Assembly: GCA_009778965.1 (NCBI GenBank)
Contig: WRFE01000002.1
Location: 1-64,000, forward strand
Direction: 5' to 3'
Origin: Candidatus Endomicrobium labiotermitis
Lineage (GTDB): Bacteria > Elusimicrobiota > Endomicrobiia > Endomicrobiales > Endomicrobiaceae
DNA length: 64,000 bases
Made by a program: the position numbers and the translations under genes. The notes under the pieces were generated by a model. The model saw nothing but the letters and a program-made list of their open reading frames with translations, ran no database searches and was not told where the DNA came from. How positions within the stretch are numbered: the stretch's first letter is position 1; each line of letters begins with the position of its first letter. Shown here one piece after another: positions 1-14,261 of this stretch.

Positions 1-3000
1 AAGTATCGGGAACTATTAATGCCTGAATATTATCACCTATTCCCCGTTTATCGGATTTTTTATTTATATATTCAAAAAGCGCCGCTTCTTTTGTTTTTAC
101 AGATTTTACCGCGTCATGTTTTGTAAATATGTCTTTAAAAGACATGTCAAACATGAGAGTATCGGCATATTCACGCTCATATTTCGCCTGCATTAATCCG
201 CTCTGGTTTTGCATAAAACCATAATGAGCCCCTTGCGAGGACGGCGAAAGCCAGGATTGGCTCTGCAATACATATCCTAAGAATTCAAAGCATTGCAGCA
301 ATACCAATTCTTTGGCATTATCGTCTAAATTTTTAGTTTTACTTTTTATTGAACTCATAAAAAGTAAGATGTCCTTATTTGCTTTAGATAATTTAAAATT
401 AGACGTTCTTATTTCCAAGGCAAGCTTTTCAATCTCGTCAAATGACGGAACGCTGATTTCTTTGGAATATGCTTTAAAAACAGAAGCTTTAGTTTTAAAC
501 GGAAGCATATTATACAAGTAGTGTAAAACAACATTTCCGGAAATAATAAAAGGCGCAAGTAAAACTACGGGAACAGCAAAAATTTGAAACGCAATCAGAG
601 GAAATGCTGAAAACGCGGAAAACACGCCGGCAAGGATCAGCCTTTCTTTCCAATGCTTTTTCCAGTCAAAGCCTTTGTGAGCCATAGAAAATATAATAGC
701 TCTGGTAAATATAAATACGGCAAGTCCGGCAATGCCAAGCCCGCTTAAAGCGCTGATCGTCAAAACAATGCTTCCAGCTATATCAAAAACTTTTGTCATT
801 TTGCTTGTTTTTAACGTATCTTTTATTTCTTGTTCTCTCTTGTTTTTAAGAAATGTCTTAGATAATACTTTAGAAAACAGTTTGCTGTCCGCGATAAAAC
901 TTGTTCCCGGAAGCATATATATCCATTCCCACAAAGGAGAACTTTTCGCGTATTCGCCTCCGAATACAGAGGCCTGGTGTCTCAAGTTTCCAAACATTAT
1001 ATCTAAAGTATTCCAGCTAATCGTAGATTTTTTCGGCTGGGCTTTATCAGGAATAATAATATTTCTAAAGCCATTCTGTTCTAAATATTTTTTTATGCCC
1101 GAAGACACCGTATCATAAAAAGTTATTCCTTTTTTTCTTGCTTTCAATTCACTTTCTAAAATTTTCATAAAATCGTTAAAATCTACGTCTACGCCGTATC
1201 TCTTAGCAATTCCAATAAAATCATCGAATTGTTTTCTGGCGACAGAATGCTCTTCAAAATTAGTAATCTTCTCTTCCGAAATTGTTGATTTTCGGTATTG
1301 ATAAAAATTTGCCAATCTGTCCGAAATCAGGTACGCCGAAATATCGGAGTATAATTCGTGCAGAGCGGCTTTTTCTTTATTTCTGACTTTAAAAAACAAT
1401 ATTCTTCTAAAAGTACTAAAGTTTTTTTCCTTAAGAATAATATGACCGAGTTCATGAGCTATTGTTTCAGGCAAATAATCCTGGACTTTCTCCCGCATAA
1501 AATATTCTTTCCCGAAAGATAAAGAAGCGTTGGCGTTATCATATTTTGCGTCAAACCTTGCGTTTAATATACGCTGATAAATCCTGCGGTTTTCCCCGCC
1601 GTGTATTTCAGGATGCTTTTCTGTCATAATAAGATAAACAGCCGAAATGTAAGACTGTAATATTTTATTTTGAAAATCCGTTCTCAAAATTTCGTTGCCA
1701 AAAGTCTTTTCCCATGAAAAGTTCTTAACTATCTTTTCGGCATCGGCAATAAGCGTCTCTCTGAGATTTTCTGGAACATGCTTATTTCTGCTTTTTAAAA
1801 GCGTATACGCATACAAACGGAGTTCAATATATTCACCGGATTTGATAATCTCCAGTAAGACTCTATCGTCTGACCTGTTATTCTTCATGGAAAGAGCTGA
1901 TATTTTCATATATTTGCGCAGTGCGGGCGATAATTTATTTTTTACATCATCTTCAAGAGAATCATATTTTGCCGCCAATGCATTATTTGTTAAATTTACT
2001 AAATACCCGGACTTGTGCCTCCAAGTCAGCTGCTCGGAAATAAATATCAATTTTTCGGCTATTTTATTAATTTCGTTTTTATTCTCAAGCAATTTAAACG
2101 CTTTCAATGCCGCCTTAAATCTTTTTTGTTCACCTTTAGACAAAGGATCATTATTGTTTTCAGCCACTGTTTCTTCAATATCAGCCAGACATCTTCGTAT
2201 ATCAATTGCCTGATACAAATAATTATTTTTTAAAAACACGGCAATTTTCGCGGCAAAAGTAACATTGAAAAATCTGTGCAATGTCATGCTGAAAAATAAT
2301 GCTGCAACCAGATATGAAAAACCAAATGCCGCAGATATGGCAAGAGGAACAGAGAAAAATAGTGATGAGAAGAATAAAATTCCGACTTTTTTAAAATTTT
2401 TGTTAAAATCATTGTTATGAGCCGCGGTAAAAATAAGACTTCTTGTAACAAAAAATGTTATAAGGACGGTAGCTGACGGAATATTAGAAAACACAGCCGC
2501 AGCAAATAATAAAGATGCCGCAATATCAATAAACTTCATAGCCGGTTTAAATGTTATAGCTTCGTCTATGATTTCTCCGGAAATATTTCTTAAAAACAAT
2601 TTTTTCAAAATCTTTTTAAAAATTGGAGTCTCCATTATAATGCTCGAAAACGGAACCGCATAAACCCATTCCCACAGAACAGCCGATTTTGCGTATTTGC
2701 GTCCAAAAATAGAAGCGTAAGGAATTGCGCTGTTGTCTTTAGGCAGGTTTATCTCAATAAGCTGGCTTCTGGTCGTATTTGCAAAAGATATTTGTATTTC
2801 TATACTGCCGTCGCTATTGCTTTTTACGCCGTTATTTACCGGGCGGTTGTATTCTCCGGAAAGATGCTCCTGAAGCAGAGCTTCGTCAATTTCACATATT
2901 TTATTTACGATTTCGTTTATAAACTGCCCGATATTCAACTTAGAATTTCTTTTTAACTCGTCATGCAAAAGAGTTTCCAAAATCTGGACAAACTGTTCCC

Positions 3001-4525
3001 GGCTTCCGCCCTGCGATATTACCTGCAAGGCCAACGCGAAAGAATCGGTTTTTAAACCGCTCAACAGTCTTTCATTATATATTTCATCGGCAATTTTAAC
3101 ATCTTGCGTAATTTTGGGAGTTATAACGGAATAACTTATTTTCTTTTCGTCAAATTCTTTTATTAACCCCTGTGTGTGAAAACCTCCGCAAACAACTACG
3201 CTTGTTCCGGGCATTTTGCTGTTAAATATATTCTTAGCGAAAATTTTGTCTCTGTCAATATTGGTTTCGTAATAATCTTTTAATAGAGCGTCGTATTTAT
3301 CCAATAAATGTATTTCTTGCGAATCCGTTGTTTGTTTCCAATAATATTTATAGTTTTCAATTCCGAATGCCGTTATGTATTTATAATCTTCCGAACCGAG
3401 TTTTGCCTGATAATAATCGCAAAAGTGTTCAAATAATTCGGAAATAATTACCGTAAACATTTCTTGTTCGCTTGCGCTTGCCTTAACCTGCAATGCTCTT
3501 AAAAGTTTTCTTTCGCTGTTTAAAAGGACTACGGGATTTATATTTGCGGAAGAGTTTTGCGCCTTTATAAAATTATCTAACTCTTTATGTTTTACTAAGT
3601 CTATAAAACCGTCCGCATTAAACTTTACAAGCTCTTTTATCAACTCTTCCGTATTGCCCGCTGAGTTTGTCTTATTTATAAATTCGGCATAAATTCCGTA
3701 AGGAAGTTTATTTTTTAATTCATTTAGAACCTCGGCAAGCTGGTTTTGAACAACTTTTACGTTTGTTTTTCTTAATCCTTTTGATGAATTTACAAAAATT
3801 GATATTTCGGAATAATCTTCGGCATTAACATCAAACCCTTTAATAACGCTTCCGTTTTTAGTTTCTTTTTTAGTATATGACAAAAGTCTTTTATAATAAT
3901 CAACGGAAGATATTTTGCCGTCGCGGTGTCTTTCGGAAAGCGCCGCCAGCCTGATGTTTAAAGCGCCGTAATTTTGTTTTTGTATTTTACCCAGAGCAAG
4001 AGAAAAAGAAGACAATATGTCTGCTATTTCAGATTGGGCCTCTGTAATCATCGAAAGCCTTTTTAAATTTGAGAGATGGACATCTCTGTCTTCTATACCT
4101 TTTAATTTCGCGCCTGCGTTATGCTTATAGGCATAATATTCGGCTCCGGTTAATTTTCCGCTTTCAAGCAGTCTTTCCGCAACGCTGCCTGAAAAACTTT
4201 TGTCTTTTATGGACATAAGCCAGCCCATATCAATATCGCCCTGCGCGCCTTCAAGATAAATATTATTTATTTTTAATTTGTCATCAAGGATTTTTATTAT
4301 GGAGCTTATATTTCTTTGTGTTTGAGGATGGCAGTGCAGATCCTGTATTATTATAATTTTCTTGGAAGAGTTGTAATTTTTATCCGCAGTTATAGCGCCG
4401 AAATCCGAAAATGTTAATGATGTTTTCACTTCGGACGCAGAACTGTCTTTGGGCGGAATACTGCCCAAAACGCTTGTTTCCAATAAAGCTATGGCTAATA
4501 GTATTGAAAGGCCTTTCCTGATCAT
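1..4525 (-). CDS. Very large exported protein, partial (runs off left edge; >1508 aa), TraB/ChaN-like N-terminal region, membrane segments, HExxH metallopeptidase-like motif
   Basis: Minus-strand frame starting ATG at 4525 (MIRKGLSILLAIALLETSVLGSIPPKDSS...). Same frame confirmed at ~4378 (NYNSSKKIIIIQDLHCHPQ), ~3199 (VVVCGGFHTQGLIKEF), ~2704, ~1489 (KVQDYLPETIAHELGHI), ~1000 and 58..2. Not in the ORF track because it has no stop inside the window. Confidence 0.85.
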   Translation of the reverse strand, partial: MIRKGLSILLAIALLETSVLGSIPPKDSSASEVKTSLTFSDFGAITADKNYNSSKKIIIIQDLHCHPQTQRNISSIIKILDDKLKINNIYLEGAQGDIDMGWLMSIKDKSFSGSVAERLLESGKLTGAEYYAYKHNAGAKLKGIEDRDVHLSNLKRLSMITEAQSEIADILSSFSLALGKIQKQNYGALNIRLAALSERHRDGKISSVDYYKRLLSYTKKETKNGSVIKGFDVNAEDYSEISIFVNSSKGLRKTNVKVVQNQLAEVLNELKNKLPYGIYAEFINKTNSAGNTEELIKELVKFNADGFIDLVKHKELDNFIKAQNSSANINPVVLLNSERKLLRALQVKASASEQEMFTVIISELFEHFCDYYQAKLGSEDYKYITAFGIENYKYYWKQTTDSQEIHLLDKYDALLKDYYETNIDRDKIFAKNIFNSKMPGTSVVVCGGFHTQGLIKEFDEKKISYSVITPKITQDVKIADEIYNERLLSGLKTDSFALALQVISQGGSREQFVQILETLLHDELKRNSKLNIGQFINEIVNKICEIDEALLQEHLSGEYNRPVNNGVKSNSDGSIEIQISFANTTRSQLIEINLPKDNSAIPYASIFGRKYAKSAVLWEWVYAVPFSSIIMETPIFKKILKKLFLRNISGEIIDEAITFKPAMKFIDIAASLLFAAAVFSNIPSATVLITFFVTRSLIFTAAHNNDFNKNFKKVGILFFSSLFFSVPLAISAAFGFSYLVAALFFSMTLHRFFNVTFAAKIAVFLKNNYLYQAIDIRRCLADIEETVAENNNDPLSKGEQKRFKAALKAFKLLENKNEINKIAEKLIFISEQLTWRHKSGYLVNLTNNALAAKYDSLEDDVKNKLSPALRKYMKISALSMKNNRSDDRVLLEIIKSGEYIELRLYAYTLLKSRNKHVPENLRETLIADAEKIVKNFSWEKTFGNEILRTDFQNKILQSYISAVYLIMTEKHPEIHGGENRRIYQRILNARFDAKYDNANASLSFGKEYFMREKVQDYLPETIAHELGHIILKEKNFSTFRRILFFKVRNKEKAALHELYSDISAYLISDRLANFYQYRKSTISEEKITNFEEHSVARKQFDDFIGIAKRYGVDVDFNDFMKILESELKARKKGITFYDTVSSGIKKYLEQNGFRNIIIPDKAQPKKSTISWNTLDIMFGNLRHQASVFGGEYAKSSPLWEWIYMLPGTSFIADSKLFSKVLSKTFLKNKREQEIKDTLKTSKMTKVFDIAGSIVLTISALSGLGIAGLAVFIFTRAIIFSMAHKGFDWKKHWKERLILAGVFSAFSAFPLIAFQIFAVPVVLLAPFIISGNVVLHYLYNMLPFKTKASVFKAYSKEISVPSFDEIEKLALEIRTSNFKLSKANKDILLFMSSIKSKTKNLDDNAKELVLLQCFEFLGYVLQSQSWLSPSSQGAHYGFMQNQSGLMQAKYEREYADTLMFDMSFKDIFTKHDAVKSVKTKEAALFEYINKKSDKRGIGDNIQALIVPDT

Positions 4526-4584
4526 GTTTATAGAATAACTCAATTTTGTTTATTTTTCAATAAATATTTGATAATATTTCCATT

Positions 4585-5334
4585 ATGGAAAAACAAGAAC
4601 TTTTCAAAAATTTTAAACAATATGTCCAGCATAATATTTTATCAAATTTTACTGATTTTGAATGTGAAAAATTTGCAATATATTTTGATGCTCTCAAAGA
4701 GTGGAACAACAAATTTAATTTAATCTCATTTAAAACGGATTTTGATTTAATTTACAGGCATTTTTGCGATTCTTTATACAGCGCTAAAGCTATTTTGGGA
4801 ATAAACCCTAATCTTTCAGCTTGCCGCATAGCAGATTTAGGCACAGGTTCCGGTATGCCCGGAATACCCGTAAAAATCGCATTGCCTGATATAAAACTTA
4901 CTCTTGTAGAATCAATAACAAAAAAATGTACTTTTTTGGAAGAAGCAAACAAAAGGCTTGGTTTTAATATTGAAGTATTAAACACACGGGCTGAAGAAAT
5001 AGGACAAAACCCTGCACATAGACAAAAATACGACTTTGTTTTATCGCGCGCTGTAAGCAAATTCTCCCCAAACCTTGAAATTTCTATTCCTTTGCTTAAA
5101 ATAGGAGGACATTTTTTAGTTCATAAAACTAAAAATTCCGTTGAAAGCAAAGAAGAAGGATTGGCTTCGGTAGAAAATGCTTTAAAACATTTGGGCGCAA
5201 AACTTGAAAAGATTATAGAGTACAAACTTCCTGAACAGGAATTAGATTATTGCCTGCTTATTTTTAAAAAATACAAAGACACACCCGCACAGTTTCCCAG
5301 AAAAACCGGAATCCCCGAAAAAAAACCGCTTTAA
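4585..5334 (+). CDS. rsmG: 16S rRNA (guanine527-N7)-methyltransferase RsmG/GidB
   Basis: FxxxLxxWNxxxNLIS..., ADLGTGSGMPGIPVKIALPD, LSRAV motifs of GidB. Confidence 0.93.
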   Translation: MEKQELFKNFKQYVQHNILSNFTDFECEKFAIYFDALKEWNNKFNLISFKTDFDLIYRHFCDSLYSAKAILGINPNLSACRIADLGTGSGMPGIPVKIALPDIKLTLVESITKKCTFLEEANKRLGFNIEVLNTRAEEIGQNPAHRQKYDFVLSRAVSKFSPNLEISIPLLKIGGHFLVHKTKNSVESKEEGLASVENALKHLGAKLEKIIEYKLPEQELDYCLLIFKKYKDTPAQFPRKTGIPEKKPL

Positions 5335-5490
5335 AACGGCAATTAACAATTAACAAAAATGAATATTTAATAATTTCCAAAAAAGAAAAAACTCCGATTT
5401 GATTGCGTAGCCCTCTAAATCCTATATTAGATTTGTCCAAAAGAGCTCATGCTACGTCCAATTCTCCATACATCTTACCTTCCGCCGTTC

Positions 5491-6129
5491 TTAAAACAGA
5501 TACAGTTTTATAAAAAAGTTGTAATTAAATCCCGATATGTCTCTGTAAATTTCCGTGCTGGCAACATTAAAATCGTCATAATTAAATTTTCCGTTAAACA
5601 TATATCCTATTTCAAAACCGACAGCTAAAAATTCTACAGGACTGAATTCCGCGCTGCCAGATATATTCGGCAAAACCTGCCAAGATACATCGGTTTTCTT
5701 TTTCCCGGTGGCAATTTCGGTATATTCAAAAGTGTTAAACGCCGTAAAAACTCCAGCGTAACCCGCAATCGCAAACATTTCATGAAGTTGTACTTTTATA
5801 TACAAATTCTCTGTAGTCGCGAAAATTTTTGAAGTAAGTTCTGCTTCGGGATCTACAAGGTGGTTTTTCCCGAATTGCGAATAGCCGAGCCTTATGCCCA
5901 AACTTATGTTGTCAGCCAAACCGAACATTCCTTCTTTGCCTAAGAAAAGATCTATTCCCCATACGCCTGCTTCCGCTTCGCTTCTGTTGTCCGGTACCGC
6001 TACTGAATTAAAATCAAACTCCGTAGTTCCCAAGATCTGTCCCCATCTTCCGACAATACCAAACTCGGCAAAAGATAACGATACACTAACTACGACAAAC
6101 ATAACCGTAAAAACTAATTTTTTAAACAT
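5491..6129 (-). CDS. Outer-membrane beta-barrel-like exported protein
   Basis: Signal peptide MFKKLVFTVMFVVVSVSLSFA; alternating aromatic beta strands; C-terminal FIKLYLF. Confidence 0.65.
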   Translation of the reverse strand: MFKKLVFTVMFVVVSVSLSFAEFGIVGRWGQILGTTEFDFNSVAVPDNRSEAEAGVWGIDLFLGKEGMFGLADNISLGIRLGYSQFGKNHLVDPEAELTSKIFATTENLYIKVQLHEMFAIAGYAGVFTAFNTFEYTEIATGKKKTDVSWQVLPNISGSAEFSPVEFLAVGFEIGYMFNGKFNYDDFNVASTEIYRDISGFNYNFFIKLYLF

Positions 6130-6419
6130 AGCATCTCCTTTTTTAACAACAATGCTCTACGGGTAATGATAAATAATTAAAATAATAATCAGGACTTTTG
6201 TTTTAATTTTGGAGCGCTCGTCAATTTCCATTTCAAACTCTAGAAGCCTTTTATCGTCTATACTGCTTGCCTGAGATAAAGGTATTTTATGAGCCCCCTG
6301 AAACTATTACATCAAATCTTGCTATACAAAATCAGTAATGCCGCTCTACGAAGAGGAGTGTCGTTTGCTTTGTTGTCATTCCAGAAATTCGTTATTGGAA
6401 ATCCACATTTGTATCGTCG

Positions 6420-8933
6420 TTAAAACTTATATATCGCCTGCAAACTTCCGCTTCCGCCTTGTCTTATTCCGCCGTAACCCTGCAAGCCTATGTCAAGCGT
6501 CAATGCTTCCGAAACGTTTACGCTTATGCCAAGTTCGCCTATTCCTGTTGCGCCTTTCAATTCCGGAGCGTCAATGTCTGCGCCGTATATTCTCGCTTGC
6601 GCTTTACCGTTGAACTCATAATCAAGATATGCGCTTGCGTATGGAGCAAAACCGCTCTTTATTTCACAATTCAAACGCCCGCCTATTCTTGTTCTCATTG
6701 AATTTGCCGCGTCAAACTCTACTTTGTCGCCCTCAATGGCTACGCTGTCCGCTCCCTGACTTGTATAAAACAGTTTGCCCGATACGTCAAGCCCTAACTT
6801 ATCGTTAAGTTTATGCAGCCAGCCTGCGCCTATATGCGCTCCGTAGTATATTGCCGAAGTTTCATAGTTTACATTGCTGTAACCTATAAAGTCCGCGCTG
6901 TTAAAATCCGTCTTTGTTGAGCCTGCGCGCAAAGAGCCTTCGCCATACCAAGCGTCGCTTATGTTATAATGTCCTAAAAAACCAAGCCCATAATAGTTGG
7001 TGCTTCCGTTTCCGTCAACAGACGCTACGGAATTAAAGCTGTTGAAACTGTCATAATTACCCCAGCCGCCTTCAACAAACGCGCCTGCCGTTATTTTTTC
7101 ATTCATCTTTTTTGCAAGTCCTGCCATTACTGAAAAACCGCTTACTTTAACGTTTGAGCCTGTTTTATATTCAGACCAGCCTCCGCCCATTGCGGCAAAT
7201 ATTGTTGTGCTTTCTGCGCTGCCTGCCGCCTGCATTAAGCTGCTTATGCCGTAGTTTGAAATAAAGTCAGACGCCTGATTAAGAAACGCAAGCCCAGCTA
7301 ACTGCCCCTCGCTTAACGCTTTGGGCTGCGGGTTATATATTTCGCTTGTTACTGTGGCAAAAAGGTTTAAGCCATCGCTGTAATCAAGTTCAAATTCAAA
7401 GATTTTTGATACGCCCTCAACGCCCAAAGCAGTGGTATTAACGCCTGTCGCAATAAGCCCGCCTGCCGTTGCGTCTATCAGCGTTACCGTGTCGCCAACA
7501 TTTATGGCAGATACGGAAGACCTTGGAGCGTCAACGCATACGCCGATTTTGCTGTTGGTAATATTTACCGCGTTGTCCACTATAAGCATTGTTCCGCCGT
7601 TGCCCATAGACGCGGGAATATAAAAGTTAAGGTTTTCAAAGTTATATATACCTTTGACTGTCAGTTCCGAGCGTACATTTAGCGTGTTTCCGGTGCGTGC
7701 GTCCATTAAGGGTATCGGAGTGAACATTCCATCGACGACAAATCCGCCGTAGATAAAAGACGCCGTTAAATCAGCATTAGCCCCGCTGCCGAGAGTGACT
7801 GTATTATGAGTAGCCTCGCCGATTCCCGTGGCATTGCCAACAATACTAATCCCGCCGTAAATATTGCCCGCTATCTTACTGTTGGAAATATTCACGGTAT
7901 TATAATTTGCCTCGGTAAGCGCGCCCGCGCCGTTAGAATCCGCATACCCTCCTAATACAAAACCGTTTACCGTGCCGCCGTTAATGATTACGCTGTTAGC
8001 GTTTGCTGTGGCTGAGCCGGCATTGTTGCTGCGTGCGTCCCCGCCGGTGACTGTATAGCTCACAGTGACGCCATTAGCGATGTTCACGCTGTTACTGTTT
8101 GCTTCAGCTGAGCCGGAGAGACTGTGGGCATTCCCGCCGGTGACAAGATGGTCCATCATACTGCCATTGGTGATGTTTACGCTGTTAGCGTTTGCTTTAG
8201 CTGAGCCAGAGGTGCAGGAGGCCTGCCCACCGGAAACATTCCAACCCACCTCGCTTCCATTGGTGATGTCCACGCTGTTCGTATTTGCTTCGGCTGAGCC
8301 AGAGCCATTGGAGGCCTGTCCGCCATAGACATAACTGCCCACAGTGCTGCTGTTAATGCTCACGCTGTTAGTATTTGCTTCTGCTGAGCTGCCGGAGGCG
8401 CTGTAGGCCTGCCCGCCATAGACATAATCACTCCCCGCACTGCTGTCAATTTTCACGCTGTTAGTGTTTGCTTCAGCTAAACCGGAGAGACTGTAGGCAT
8501 CCCCGCCGTAGACATAATTACTCACCGTACTTCCATTAGCGATATTCACGCTGTTATGGTTTGCCTCGGCTGAGTTTGAGTTGCTGTCGGCACGCCCGCC
8601 GTAAGCAGAACGCGCCGAGCTATTGTCAATAATTACGCTGTTATGATTTGCTGCGACTGAGCCGGAGGTGCTGTAGCTGCCACCACCGTAGACAGACCAG
8701 TTCACCACGCTGCCGTTAACGATACGAACCGTGTTGCTGTTTGGGTCTGCCAAAGCGGAAATTCCGTCCCAATAACCGTTTGGTAAGCTTCCGTTGCCGT
8801 AAACACTGTTCGCAATTGGTAACCCATCAATAATGATCGTCTGACCCGCAAAAGCAGGACGGACTTGTCCAGGAAGCCCTGCAAAACTGCATAAAAATGA
8901 TACGGCAACAAATAATGATAAAACTTTTTTCAT
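6420..8933 (-). CDS. Autotransporter-type surface protein: repetitive passenger plus C-terminal beta-barrel
   Basis: Signal peptide; ~9-10 repeats of ~31 aa (NSVNITNGSxVxxxVxGGxAxSxSGSAEAN); autotransporter-like barrel ending IYKF. Confidence 0.85.
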   Translation of the reverse strand: MKKVLSLFVAVSFLCSFAGLPGQVRPAFAGQTIIIDGLPIANSVYGNGSLPNGYWDGISALADPNSNTVRIVNGSVVNWSVYGGGSYSTSGSVAANHNSVIIDNSSARSAYGGRADSNSNSAEANHNSVNIANGSTVSNYVYGGDAYSLSGLAEANTNSVKIDSSAGSDYVYGGQAYSASGSSAEANTNSVSINSSTVGSYVYGGQASNGSGSAEANTNSVDITNGSEVGWNVSGGQASCTSGSAKANANSVNITNGSMMDHLVTGGNAHSLSGSAEANSNSVNIANGVTVSYTVTGGDARSNNAGSATANANSVIINGGTVNGFVLGGYADSNGAGALTEANYNTVNISNSKIAGNIYGGISIVGNATGIGEATHNTVTLGSGANADLTASFIYGGFVVDGMFTPIPLMDARTGNTLNVRSELTVKGIYNFENLNFYIPASMGNGGTMLIVDNAVNITNSKIGVCVDAPRSSVSAINVGDTVTLIDATAGGLIATGVNTTALGVEGVSKIFEFELDYSDGLNLFATVTSEIYNPQPKALSEGQLAGLAFLNQASDFISNYGISSLMQAAGSAESTTIFAAMGGGWSEYKTGSNVKVSGFSVMAGLAKKMNEKITAGAFVEGGWGNYDSFNSFNSVASVDGNGSTNYYGLGFLGHYNISDAWYGEGSLRAGSTKTDFNSADFIGYSNVNYETSAIYYGAHIGAGWLHKLNDKLGLDVSGKLFYTSQGADSVAIEGDKVEFDAANSMRTRIGGRLNCEIKSGFAPYASAYLDYEFNGKAQARIYGADIDAPELKGATGIGELGISVNVSEALTLDIGLQGYGGIRQGGSGSLQAIYKF

Positions 8934-8973
8934 ACATTTTTCTCCTTGCTGAGAGCTTCACAAGTTCTACTTG

Positions 8974-9207
8974 CTAATGCAACAGTTGAAGTAGTTTGTG
9001 AAACCTATCTTTTACCGATAATTTTGCCTGCTCTATTTCTACGGCTTTATGAATTTTCTGTTTTAATAATTTCTGCTGTTGCATGTTTATAAGATAATCG
9101 GCGACTTTTATATTGTTCTTAATTGTCGTATCAGTGATACGAGAATCGCTTTGCCGGGAAAATTTTTCGCAAATTGTTAAGCTATGATGATAAGGCTTAC
9201 TGTGTAT
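8974..9207 (-). pseudogene. Startless ORF fragment (77 aa, ...RITDTTIKNNIKVADYLINMQQQKLLKQKIHKAVEIEQAKLSVKDRFHKLLQLLH*)
   Basis: Coding-like fragment with no start; stop at 8974; family not recognised. Confidence 0.35.
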
Positions 9208-9426
9208 TTAATTAAAATTAATGGATAATATCTGTTGCAACCGCATCAAAAAACAATAATTTAGACATAATCGGCAGAACAGCTTTAAAAGATAATGAAC
9301 TTTAAAGTGCTGTATTTTTAAATAATTAGCAGTTTAGCACAGGAATAAATAATAAACCTGTTTAATTTTTTCTCGTATTTTCCAATTCCGCATACATATT
9401 ATTAATATTTGTATATTGAATTATTA

Positions 9427-9598
9427 AAATCTTATCATCAGAGAATTTGTGGAAGAGGCAATCAATTCATTATCCCGGTATAACAAAATTTTTTTAGATA
9501 GTTCAGCTAATATCTGGAAAGTATATGACTTGAATACGAGGCAGAGATTACAGAATTTAATTACTCCCGGCTTCTCTTTTCAAGAAAAGCTTAATTAA
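9427..9598 (+). pseudogene. C-terminal remnant of a serine recombinase/resolvase-like protein
   Basis: Translation REFVEEAINSLSRYNKIFLDSSANIWKVYDLNTRQRLQNLITPGFSFQEKLN* resembles the C-terminal tail of large serine recombinases (...RQRLQNLIFPEG...); in-frame stop just upstream. Confidence 0.5.
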
Positions 9599-9660
9599 AT
9601 CTTATTTGAGTTAAAAAGAGAAAGGCAGGTAGGCTTCAAGTCCCTTTTTGACAAAAGAAA

Positions 9661-9682
9661 AAACAAACCTGTTGGTTTGTTT
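9661..9682. terminator. Intrinsic terminator-like hairpin
   Basis: AAACAAACC-TGTT-GGTTTGTTT flanked by A and T tracts. Confidence 0.6.
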
Positions 9683-9688
9683 TTAATA

Positions 9689-9760
9689 AGCGGGCGATGG
9701 GACTTGAACCCACGACCTTCTCGTTGGCAACGAGACGTTCTACCACTGAACTACACCCGC
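9689..9760 (-). tRNA. tRNA-Gly(GCC)
   Basis: RC GCGGGTGTAGTTCAGTGGTAGAACGTCTCGTTGCCAACGAGAAGGTCGTGGGTTCAAGTCCCATCGCCCGCT; anticodon loop TTGCCAA. Confidence 0.93.
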
Positions 9761-9930
9761 ATTGTTATAATTACGAATTATTAATGACGAATTACGAATA
9801 AACGACAACAATTATTTTATTTAATAATTTTTTACGAACGATTTTGTATTTTTGCGACGGCGAAGTTTAGGAAAAACCTAAATGAGCCGAAGTATAAGAA
9901 AACAAAAATTCAAAAGCGGAAGTAAAAATA

Positions 9931-10012
9931 TGCTGAGGGCGGGACTTGAACCCGCATCCCGTTAAGGACACGCCCCTCAAACGTGCGCGTATGCCAGTTC
10001 CGCCACCTCAGC
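9931..10012 (-). tRNA. tRNA-Leu(GAG)
   Basis: RC GCTGAGGTGGCGGAACTGGCATACGCGCACGTTTGAGGGGCGTGTCC...GGGTTCAAGTCCCGCCCTCAGCA; anticodon loop TTGAGGG; long variable arm. Confidence 0.9.
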
Positions 10013-10024
10013 GTAAGTATTACC

Positions 10025-10345
10025 TTAATTACCGCCCGGTTCGACCGGACCTGTTATAGGAATATTAGAGAGCCTATCTACCACAGACATCATATTCATA
10101 TTTGTGGAAAGCTTTGTCAACACCAAAGACGTAAAAATAAAAATGCACGCCATGACAATAGTAAGCTTTTTTATAAAAGCCATTCCCGAAGGAGCATTAA
10201 AAATCTCGCCCGATCCGCCGCCTCCGAAAATTCCCGCCATGCCGCCGCTTTTACCGGCTTGAAACAAAATGACGATAATCAGCCCCGCACAAACTGTGTA
10301 ATGTACAAACTGAAGCAAATAGAATACTGTATGTAATGAATTCAT
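10025..10345 (-). CDS. secG: Protein translocase subunit SecG
   Basis: Two TM segments, ILFQAGKSGGMAGIFGGG signature. Confidence 0.88.
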   Translation of the reverse strand: MNSLHTVFYLLQFVHYTVCAGLIIVILFQAGKSGGMAGIFGGGGSGEIFNAPSGMAFIKKLTIVMACIFIFTSLVLTKLSTNMNMMSVVDRLSNIPITGPVEPGGN

Positions 10346-10491
10346 AGTTTTCCGATTATATCACAAAATTTATTTAGTGTCAACTTTTTAACTAAGGAAG
10401 ATGGGAGGATGAGAAGATGAGATGCAGAGCAAAAACAAAGACAAAGTCGTTGCACAGCTTCCCATCCTCTCAACTTCTCATCATCTGATTT

Positions 10492-11739
10492 TTATTTTTC
10501 CGGCAATGCCGCTATTCCGGGGAGTTCTTTGCCTTCTAAAAATTCAAGAGAGGCTCCGCCGCCCGTAGAAATGTGGCTTATTCTTTTATCTACTCCGGCT
10601 TTTTTAACCGCGGAAACAGAATCTCCGCCGCCGACAACAGAAATCGCGCCGTTATCCGTAGCTTCTGCCGCAAGTTTCGCTATTTCAACCGTTCCTTTAG
10701 AAAATGCGTCTATTTCAAAAATTCCTAAAGGTCCGTTCCAAACTATAGTTTTTGCCGATTTAACAACTTCGGCAAATTTCGCTACTGACTTAGGACCTGC
10801 GTCAACGCCCATAAATCCCGCGGGAATAGAAGCGTCATCCGTTACCTTTACAATCCCGTCAGCCGGAACCGCTTTATTCGCGAAATCAACTTTATCGGCA
10901 ATAACATGATCTACCGGAAGCAAAAACTCGACATTTTTTTCTTTGGCTTTCTTTAAAAGTTCCAACGCCAAGTCGAGTTTATCGTCTTCAACCAAAGATG
11001 TCCCGGTGCTTATGCCCTGCGCTTTTAAAAACGTATAAGCCATAGCGCCGCCGATTATAATAGAATTTACTTTACCGAGTAAATTTTCAATAACATTTAT
11101 TTTATCCGAAACTTTCGCGCCGCCGAGAATCGCGACAAAAGGTCTTACCGGATTAGCAAGAGCTTCTCCTAAAAACTTCAATTCTTTTTCAACCAGGAAA
11201 CCTGCGGCCGCATCTTTAACATATTTAACTATACCGGCAGTGGAAGCATGCGCTCTGTGAACTGTTCCGAAAGCATCCTGAACAAAAACTTCGCCCATAG
11301 ACGCAAGTTCTTTCGCGAACGCATCCATAGCGGCTTTATCTTTTTCACCTGCGGCATTTTTGCCTTCTTCTTCAGAGTGAAATCTCAAATTTTCAAGCAA
11401 AAGAATTTCGCCGGCTTTTAAATCCGCAGCTGCTTGTTTAGCTTCGGCGCTTATTGCGTCGCCCGCTACAAATTTAACTGGTTTTCCGAGAAGTTCGCTG
11501 AGTCTGGGAGCAACCGGTTTCAGGCTCATAGAATCAACAACTTTGCCTTTTGGTCTTCCTAAATGTGATAAAAGAATTATAGCTGCGTTTTGTTCCAAAA
11601 GATAATTTATAGTAGGAAGAGTCGCGGCGATTCTTTTGTCATTTGTTATATTCAAATTCGCGTCTAAGGGAACGTTATAGTCCACTCTCACCAAAACTTT
11701 TTTGCCTTTTACGTCAATGTCTTTAAGCGTTTTTTTCAT
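10492..11739 (-). CDS. pgk: Phosphoglycerate kinase (start corrected from ORF-track 11862)
   Basis: [26 protein letters not shown]..., [14 protein letters not shown]; the 41-aa N-terminal extension in the track is translated intergenic repeat. Confidence 0.96.
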
Positions 11740-11769
11740 GTTGTACCCCTTTTTGTTGTTATCATCTGT

Positions 11770-11850
11770 CATCCCTGAATGTCTTAATCGGGGATCCACG
11801 TTAATTTTTAAAATGGATTCCCGACAACGAATTTCGGGAATGACGGATAG
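11770..11850. repeat. Intergenic palindromic element of the 'CATTCCGGG...CCCGGAATCC' type
   Basis: gtcatccctgaatg...ggggatccacgttaatttttaaaatggattcccgacaacgaatttcgggaatgac. Confidence 0.7.
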
Positions 11851-11861
11851 AGGGAAAGACA

Positions 11862-11900
11862 AAACAAAAGCTTCCCTTTTATCCGGGGAAGCTTTTGTTT
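11862..11900. terminator. 15-bp perfect stem terminator between gap and pgk
   Basis: AAACAAAAGCTTCCC-loop-GGGAAGCTTTTGTTT. Confidence 0.8.
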
Positions 11901-11913
11901 GTTTGCTTTATTA

Positions 11914-13029
<1,116 letters not shown>

Positions 13030-13301
13030 TCACGAGCGAAAAAGTAAGCAAAACGCCCGCCGCCGGAGCGCATTCACAGTCAATTTTTTAAAACAATTTC
13101 GCAAACTCGCGCAAAATAAAGACTTTAACGGTTTGCGCTCAAACAGTGCGGAATAGATATTTCAAAAATCGGCTGCTCATAGACTCGCGCTAATGCGGCA
13201 AAAACAAAGCCGGAAATTTAACAAAAAAACGGCAGTAGCAATTTGATTTTGCCGCTGCCATTATTTGTTATTTGTACTTTGTTAATTGTTCTTTGTTATT
13301 C

Positions 13302-14261
13302 TTAAAACCCGCTTGCTTTTATGACTTCTCTTACTTTTTGCGCGGAGTTTTTAAACGCCGCAAGTTCGGCTTCGTCAAAATCAACTTCAAACGCCTGGCG
13401 TATGCCGCCTTTATTTACAACCGCGGGAACGCTTAAATATATACCGCTTTCGCCTTGGTAATTATTAAGCAAAGACGATACGGAAAGAACAGTATTTTCG
13501 TCTTTCAGAATCGCTTCCGAGATTTTTGTAAGGGCAAGCCCTATTCCGTAAGAAGTTTCACCTTTTTTAGCAATAATTTTATAGGCGGAATCTCTGACTT
13601 CTTCAAAAATATCTTTAAGTTTTGCTTCCGGATTTTGCCCGCAATTTTCTTTATTGCATATTTTGCAATAGTCTTTAAATAAAATGTCTCCGACAAACGC
13701 TTTGCTCCACATAGGAAATTCAGTATCTCCGTGCTCTCCCAGAATTGAAGCATGTATGCTTCTTGAATCAATGTTACAATGACTGCCTATCAAATATTTG
13801 AAACGCGCCGAATCAAGAACAGTGCCGGAACCTATAATTTCATTCGCGGGTTTACCTGATATTTTATAAGTAATATATGACAAAATGTCCACTGGGTTTG
13901 ACACAACAAGAATTATAGCGGCAGGCGCATATTTTACTATCTGCGGAACAATACTTTTGAGTATTTCGGCATTGCCTTTTATTAAATCTATTCTTGTTTC
14001 TCCCGGTTTTTGACCTCTTCCCGCGGTAATAACTACCAAATCCGAATCTGCAATATCAGAATAATCACCGACGTAAATATTGACCGGAGAAACATACGGC
14101 GCGCCGTGTGACAAATCCATAGCTTCGCCTTCGGCTTTTTGTCTGTTATAATCAACAAGGACAATTTCTCTTGCGATACCCGCTATTATAATTGAGTAAA
14201 CATAACGCATACCGACATTTCCGCACCCTATAACCGAAACTTTTGGTGATAATTTTGACAT
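13302..14261 (-). CDS. L-lactate dehydrogenase-like (LDH/MDH family; Gln at specificity position)
   Basis: GCGNVGMRYVY, AGRGQKPGETRIDLI, VSNPVDIL, ILGEHGDTEFPMWS. Confidence 0.85.
   Translation of the reverse strand: MSKLSPKVSVIGCGNVGMRYVYSIIIAGIAREIVLVDYNRQKAEGEAMDLSHGAPYVSPVNIYVGDYSDIADSDLVVITAGRGQKPGETRIDLIKGNAEILKSIVPQIVKYAPAAIILVVSNPVDILSYITYKISGKPANEIIGSGTVLDSARFKYLIGSHCNIDSRSIHASILGEHGDTEFPMWSKAFVGDILFKDYCKICNKENCGQNPEAKLKDIFEEVRDSAYKIIAKKGETSYGIGLALTKISEAILKDENTVLSVSSLLNNYQGESGIYLSVPAVVNKGGIRQAFEVDFDEAELAAFKNSAQKVREVIKASGF

Follow-up and report, generated by a model that had tools for sequence, protein, structure and literature searches.

Members of the TIKI superfamily (ChaN, PF04187; TraB, PF01963; the erythromycin esterases (Ere), PF05139; and RRSP) share an active site of two His and two Glu residues, in which a Glu-x-His motif is followed by a Glu 28 residues past that His in both RRSP (3902/3930) and Bcr135 (85/113) (PMC6254334). 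A further point of comparison is offered by the giant open reading frames (ORFs) of Omnitrophota, uncultured and often host-associated bacteria, in which transmembrane segments accompany few known domains and conservation is described as poor (Seymour et al. 2023, PMC10066038). Moreover, a survey of huge proteins (>5,000 amino acids, aa) counts the Elusimicrobiota as one of the bacterial phyla that are richest in them, reports no COG assignment for these proteins and names no family (PMC11573180). Here we describe a gene for a giant, predictedly exported protein of Candidatus Endomicrobium labiotermitis, a termite-gut member of the same phylum. It lies on the minus strand at the very start of contig WRFE01000002.1 (assembly GCA_009778965.1), whose positions 1-64,000 form the window, that is, the whole stretch of 64,000 nucleotides analysed. 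We judge it somewhat probable that this giant is one of at least 14 paralogues, within its own genome, of a phylum-wide family of Sec-exported, membrane-associated modular proteins with an active hydrolase head.

A giant gene cut by the contig start

The ORF scan returned an open minus-strand frame at window positions 2-4543 (1,514 codons, 3′ open), in agreement with an earlier sequence-only reading that had proposed a single frame over the first 4.5 kb. The ATG at 4525 agrees with the starts of orthologues, and hence 1,508 aa are encoded within the window (2..4525). The motifs quoted by that reading, IIIIQDLHCHPQTQRN, IYLEGAQGDID, VVVCGGFHTQGL and PETIAHELGHI, are all present in the translation. 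As base 1 of the window is also base 1 of the contig, it is the assembly that truncates the ORF.

The frame stays open over its full length in three syntenic orthologues (2,469-2,475 aa). Two belong to E. embiratermitis and E. macrotermitis, whose heads show 67% and 63% identity, respectively, and the third to another genome. Between two of the orthologues the ratio of nonsynonymous to synonymous divergence (dN/dS) is approximately 0.2 (dN 0.27 and dS 1.33 over the full-length gene) and does not exceed ~0.3 in any 300-aa block; purifying selection acts on the whole orthologue gene. Because the orthologues are open throughout and dN/dS is low, we regard the gene as real, and a chance ORF or assembly artefact is ruled out.

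The leftward extension that the sequence-only reading had called for probably lies elsewhere in the assembly. With the orthologue C-terminus as query in the same genome we recovered a second contig (C22), which terminates within a 2,328-aa minus-strand frame where the orthologue register resumes ~3 aa past the end of the window fragment. The gene order rsmG, giant, small exported protein, EFR1/flavodoxin-like gene and mnmG (names follow sequence similarity as read) is identical in E. embiratermitis and is the same over the covered part of the other two orthologous loci; in the window the anchor is the divergently oriented rsmG homologue at 4585..5334 (plus strand), likewise named from similarity. 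From synteny and homologous register together, the complete protein would be ~3,840 aa, with the 5′ 40% of the gene in the window and the rest on C22. Relative to its orthologues, the giant carries a ~1,170-aa C-terminal stretch twice and gains a second zincin-like module. The joined protein ends in SIYKILSAA.

A candidate TIKI-superfamily hydrolase head

The N-terminal head (~residues 45-500; 3044..4411, minus strand, as are all features of the giant given below) likely belongs to the TIKI superfamily as a divergent member, the one departure being a conservative replacement of Glu by Asp. Across 80 aligned members Q67, D68, H70, E98, N428, R431, G453, G454, H456 and P476 are invariant (window numbering is alignment numbering plus 38). 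The first catalytic-type motif is QDLHCH (D68, H70, H72; 4328..4345), in which Q, D, L and the first H are invariant. E98 (4250..4252) follows H70 by 28 residues, the same spacing as in RRSP and Bcr135. N428-x-x-R431 (3251..3262) places its Arg 25 residues ahead of the second catalytic-type His, H456 of GGFH (3176..3187). Of the superfamily's two His and two Glu, the His-Glu pair and the second His are thus present in all 80 members. Since every catalytic-type position is invariant, hydrolase activity is most likely, and the head would cleave peptide or ester bonds, as RRSP and the Ere enzymes do.

Structure prediction of this region, a check proposed in the sequence-only reading, yielded an AlphaFold2 (AF2) model with a pLDDT of 90.6 and a pTM of 0.85. 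Strands at 11-17, 23-30, 56-59, 63-65, 109-112, 408-415 and 432-438 lie among helices and are interrupted by a large helical insertion, which is unlike the known superfamily members, as is the fusion of the head to a giant body. Judged from these strand positions and from a modest match to EreC, the model is in keeping with the central, largely parallel sheet with flanking helices of the TIKI fold. In a Foldseek search of the PDB, EreC took ranks 1 and 2 (E 0.029 and 0.23; probability 0.91 and 0.47).

A stronger bridge than the EreC match leads through other Elusimicrobiota. Giants at four of their loci have Pfam ChaN matches (L134, L138, L145 and L146; best E 4.6e-7), the first above the PF04187 cut-off (30.5 vs 27.7) and the other three below it. 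Because these ChaN-positive giants are homologous to the Endomicrobia head (hhalign probability 100%, E 7.6e-39), the head is linked to ChaN. Searches of the head against Pfam, NCBIfam and PDB sequences gave nothing consistent, with weak DUF1722 matches in 8/20, and a viral structure library gave no match. We also considered whether the head arose from a conventional ChaN, TraB or Ere gene of the same genome, where none such was found; TraB PF01963 and erythromycin esterase PF05139 both have 0 matches there.

Constant ends and variable middles

The protein begins with a putative signal peptide, MIRKGLSILLAIALLETSVLG (4463..4525, cleavage site approximate). This agrees with the signal peptide of the sequence-only reading and extends it to the family, where a hydrophobic h-region stands behind K/R in 98/99 members, usually ~64 aa ahead of the QDLH motif. 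The signal peptide points to Sec export, and the hydrophobic modules described below point to membrane attachment. A CF pair recurs in the h-region (TxxCFhhS), with the Cys present in 71/99 members and outside a lipobox. At the other end, a tail of ~6 residues, hL.AA (hydrophobic-L/I/M-x-A-A), closes 30 of the 35 Endomicrobia members whose 3′ end is complete, compared with 4/429 other ORFs, three of which are 5′-open fragments that may themselves be family members. No convincing closed non-family ORF with the tail occurs in the fetched loci, and a general sorting signal was rejected as its explanation.

The family was sought in a sample of 151 genomes, all within Elusimicrobiota. The head was present in 45 of these, in large frames of up to 12,656 aa. 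In the 1.89-Mb genome of the window the ~490-aa N-terminal domain has at least 14 copies, and the family totals at least ~35,700 aa, which corresponds to ~5.7% of the DNA. With so large a share of a small genome, it must matter for the lifestyle of a gut bacterium. In other classes, two genomes (G063 and G077) contain 28 and 36 head matches in frames that reach 10,906 aa, and the tails there do not resemble that of Endomicrobia. On our best reading of these sequences the family is phylum-wide, and its members would be Sec-exported, membrane-associated modular giants. A genome of the same genus, presumably E. proavitum (1.6 Mb, one contig, closed-looking), has 0 members, and members are mostly absent or few in genus g8, whose genomes of 0.6-1.4 Mb presumably belong to flagellate endosymbionts. 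A second member lies on the contig of the window just past its end (L016, C2:64001-79491; frame 398-14068, minus strand; 4,557 aa); within what is apparently an exported protein it has a superfamily 1 (SF1) helicase (AAA_11/AAA_12, E 8e-42) as well as a GT2 domain, the latter weak.

The head family could account for many of the huge proteins of Elusimicrobiota. It resembles the Omnitrophota giants, by description only, in its giant frames, transmembrane segments and few known domains, but unlike them it is united by head and tail, and its known domains are enzymes rather than adhesins. A definable head and tail make these huge proteins countable, datable and testable as a family, and the invariant active site is a concrete biochemical handle. 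No description of the head-and-tail family appeared in the literature searched, a scope outside which bioRxiv and most subscription journals fell, and the terms 'giant', 'large proteins' and 'surface protein' are all absent from a 2024 Endomicrobia genome paper.

Between the constant ends, middles differ widely even among paralogues of one genome. In the window protein the head is followed by a first CPBP-like membrane module (~residues 609-770; 2234..2719), delimited by a module hidden Markov model (HMM) and paralogue alignment, with a degenerate first motif (WE--WVYAVPF). There follow a helical linker module found only in the orthologue group (~residues 783-902; 1838..2197), a zincin-like module (~residues 907-1167; 1043..1825) and a second CPBP-like module (~residues 1190-1356; 476..976), which a module HMM also supports, which is 68% identical to its copy on C22 and which again has a degenerate first motif. 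Hydrophobic stretches near residues 720, 1260 and 1305 are in keeping with the membrane segments that the sequence-only reading had placed after the head. Paralogues aligned to the CPBP-like module resemble CPBP (CAAX/Abi) intramembrane proteases in keeping APxWEExxFR...FxxxH...HxxxN within hydrophobic modules. Unlike these, the window protein (both copies) and its orthologues have lost EExxxR, reading WE--WVY, and retain the later motifs; their modules have no Pfam match.

The zincin-like module contains HELGH (H1030-H1034; 1442..1456) and, in HELYSD, E1063 (1355..1357), a putative third zinc ligand of gluzincin type. Both the HExxH and this Glu are kept in six relatives. The zincin-like assignment made from sequence alone therefore holds at the level of motif only. 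The AF2 model (pLDDT 74, pTM 0.80) had no significant Foldseek match in the PDB and no zincin near the top, and an orthologue gave a SprT-like match at E 0.18 only. The combination of head and HExxH had also been called unusual, which for this clade it is not. HExxH occurs within 500 aa after the head in 27/85 members, where shuffled sequences predict 0.4, and EExx[FYL]R in 12/85, where 0.47 is expected, the latter in the CPBP context APxWEExxFR. Two adjacent plus-strand giant frames at another locus (L069, 218-7447 and 7451-11800) both contain a module related to the zincin-like one of the window; the usual AA tail is missing from the first frame.

Whole enzymes are embedded in other middles. 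One protein combines phosphoglucomutase/phosphomannomutase (PGM/PMM), adenylate kinase (ADK) and phosphofructokinase (PFK), and another nucleoside diphosphate kinase (NDK) and GNAT; further domains are an SF1 helicase, a calcineurin-like phosphatase with a low-molecular-weight protein tyrosine phosphatase, an ABC1 kinase and an M48 peptidase. Active-site motifs are mostly intact and some are degraded. At L013 (frame 3424-12147, minus strand) complete PGM/PMM domains I-IV, with TASHNP, DPDGDR and RLSGTEP intact, lie within a signal-peptide-bearing giant. In the L011 frame (3-6923, minus strand) PGM-, ADK- and PFK-like regions follow one another in that order; the first two have altered active-site motifs and the PFK-like region keeps GGDGT. 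The closest own-genome match of the L013 PGM is only 36% identical, and recent copying of the cell's own genes was set aside as the source of these enzymes.

Possible functions of the giants

In the reading that we favour, a member would consist of a family-specific signal peptide, a constant head of ~490 aa in the form of a divergent TIKI hydrolase whose DxH / E / R / GGxH layout is intact, a variable middle, often opening with a CPBP or HExxH protease module and sometimes containing whole enzymes, and, in Endomicrobia, the short hL.AA tail. Such a polypeptide would have its site of action in the envelope or beyond the cell, and either its own proteases or those of partners may divide it into pieces. 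Conceivable targets of the head are the giant itself, the proteins of neighbours, and host or gut material. Several points weigh against this reading. Catalytic activity and export are themselves predictions. The head of the window protein has no Pfam or NCBIfam match, ChaN PF04187 included, and its direct hhalign comparison with classical ChaN is not significant; nor is the best EreC match significant alone (E 0.029, probability 0.91, TM ~0.25). The first Glu of the ExH motif is replaced by an invariant Asp (QDLH), albeit a conservative change. Moreover, ATP-using enzymes (NDK, ADK, PFK and the helicase) make little sense in a secreted protein, outside the cytoplasm. The TraB/ChaN/erythromycin-esterase fold suggested by the sequence-only reading thus stands at superfamily level, through the ranking of EreC, the ChaN bridge, the residue layout and the 28-residue spacing.

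Since protease modules so often follow the head, it is attractive to suppose that the giants are self-processing polyproteins, in which the chain would be cleaved after export by the TIKI head, by the HExxH and CPBP modules or by both, freeing a variable cargo, with the tail guiding sorting or a C-terminal protease. The constancy of the ends beside variable middles, the strong enrichment of protease motifs directly after the head and the invariant head active site are all consistent with this. We nevertheless hold it to be possible rather than probable, as no cleavage site or products are known, the orthologue group of the window has a defunct CPBP motif and a recognised protease module is missing from several members. 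Its broader form, an export-and-processing format of Elusimicrobiota in which a constant signal peptide, TIKI head and tail would carry dozens of giant polyproteins whose captured protease and metabolic-enzyme middles are cut after export, seems to us a little less likely still. We would give no more credence to a giant coat or adhesion protein of the cell surface, with a binding or structural head for which catalysis is irrelevant. Cell contact has been proposed for the Omnitrophota ORFs, which combine transmembrane segments with few annotated domains (PMC10066038), and members of the present family also carry hydrophobic segments, but catalytic-type residues are invariant in 80 members and the middles yielded enzymes where adhesin domains were not found.

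Delivery of effectors against neighbouring microbes or eukaryotic hosts, with head and tail for delivery and the middle as payload, appears unlikely. Embedded whole enzymes that largely keep their motifs, the many paralogues whose middles are unrelated and the scarcity or absence of the family in most g8 genomes would fit it. However, the payload sits in the middle and not at the C-terminus, the flanking genes seen are only of housekeeping type or small and exported, and no delivery system is linked to the family. The features of polymorphic or giant delivered toxins are missing too, in that the C-terminus is constant and orthologous loci have no immunity-like small gene directly downstream, although a toxin library was not searched. 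Least likely, and in our view improbable, is that middles expand by in-frame domain capture and duplication and then decay, leaving only the ends functional. The degenerate CPBP motif, the degraded PGM and ADK of L011 and the ~1,170-aa tandem duplication in the giant relative to its orthologues could be read in this way, but every block of the middle shows dN/dS of no more than ~0.3 and several embedded enzymes keep intact active-site motifs; decay as the sole explanation of the middles is ruled out by the latter.

Elsewhere in the window, an 837-aa exported protein is encoded at 6420-8933 (minus strand), with EANTNSVxI...GG-type repeats and a C-terminus that closes with YKF and resembles an autotransporter barrel.

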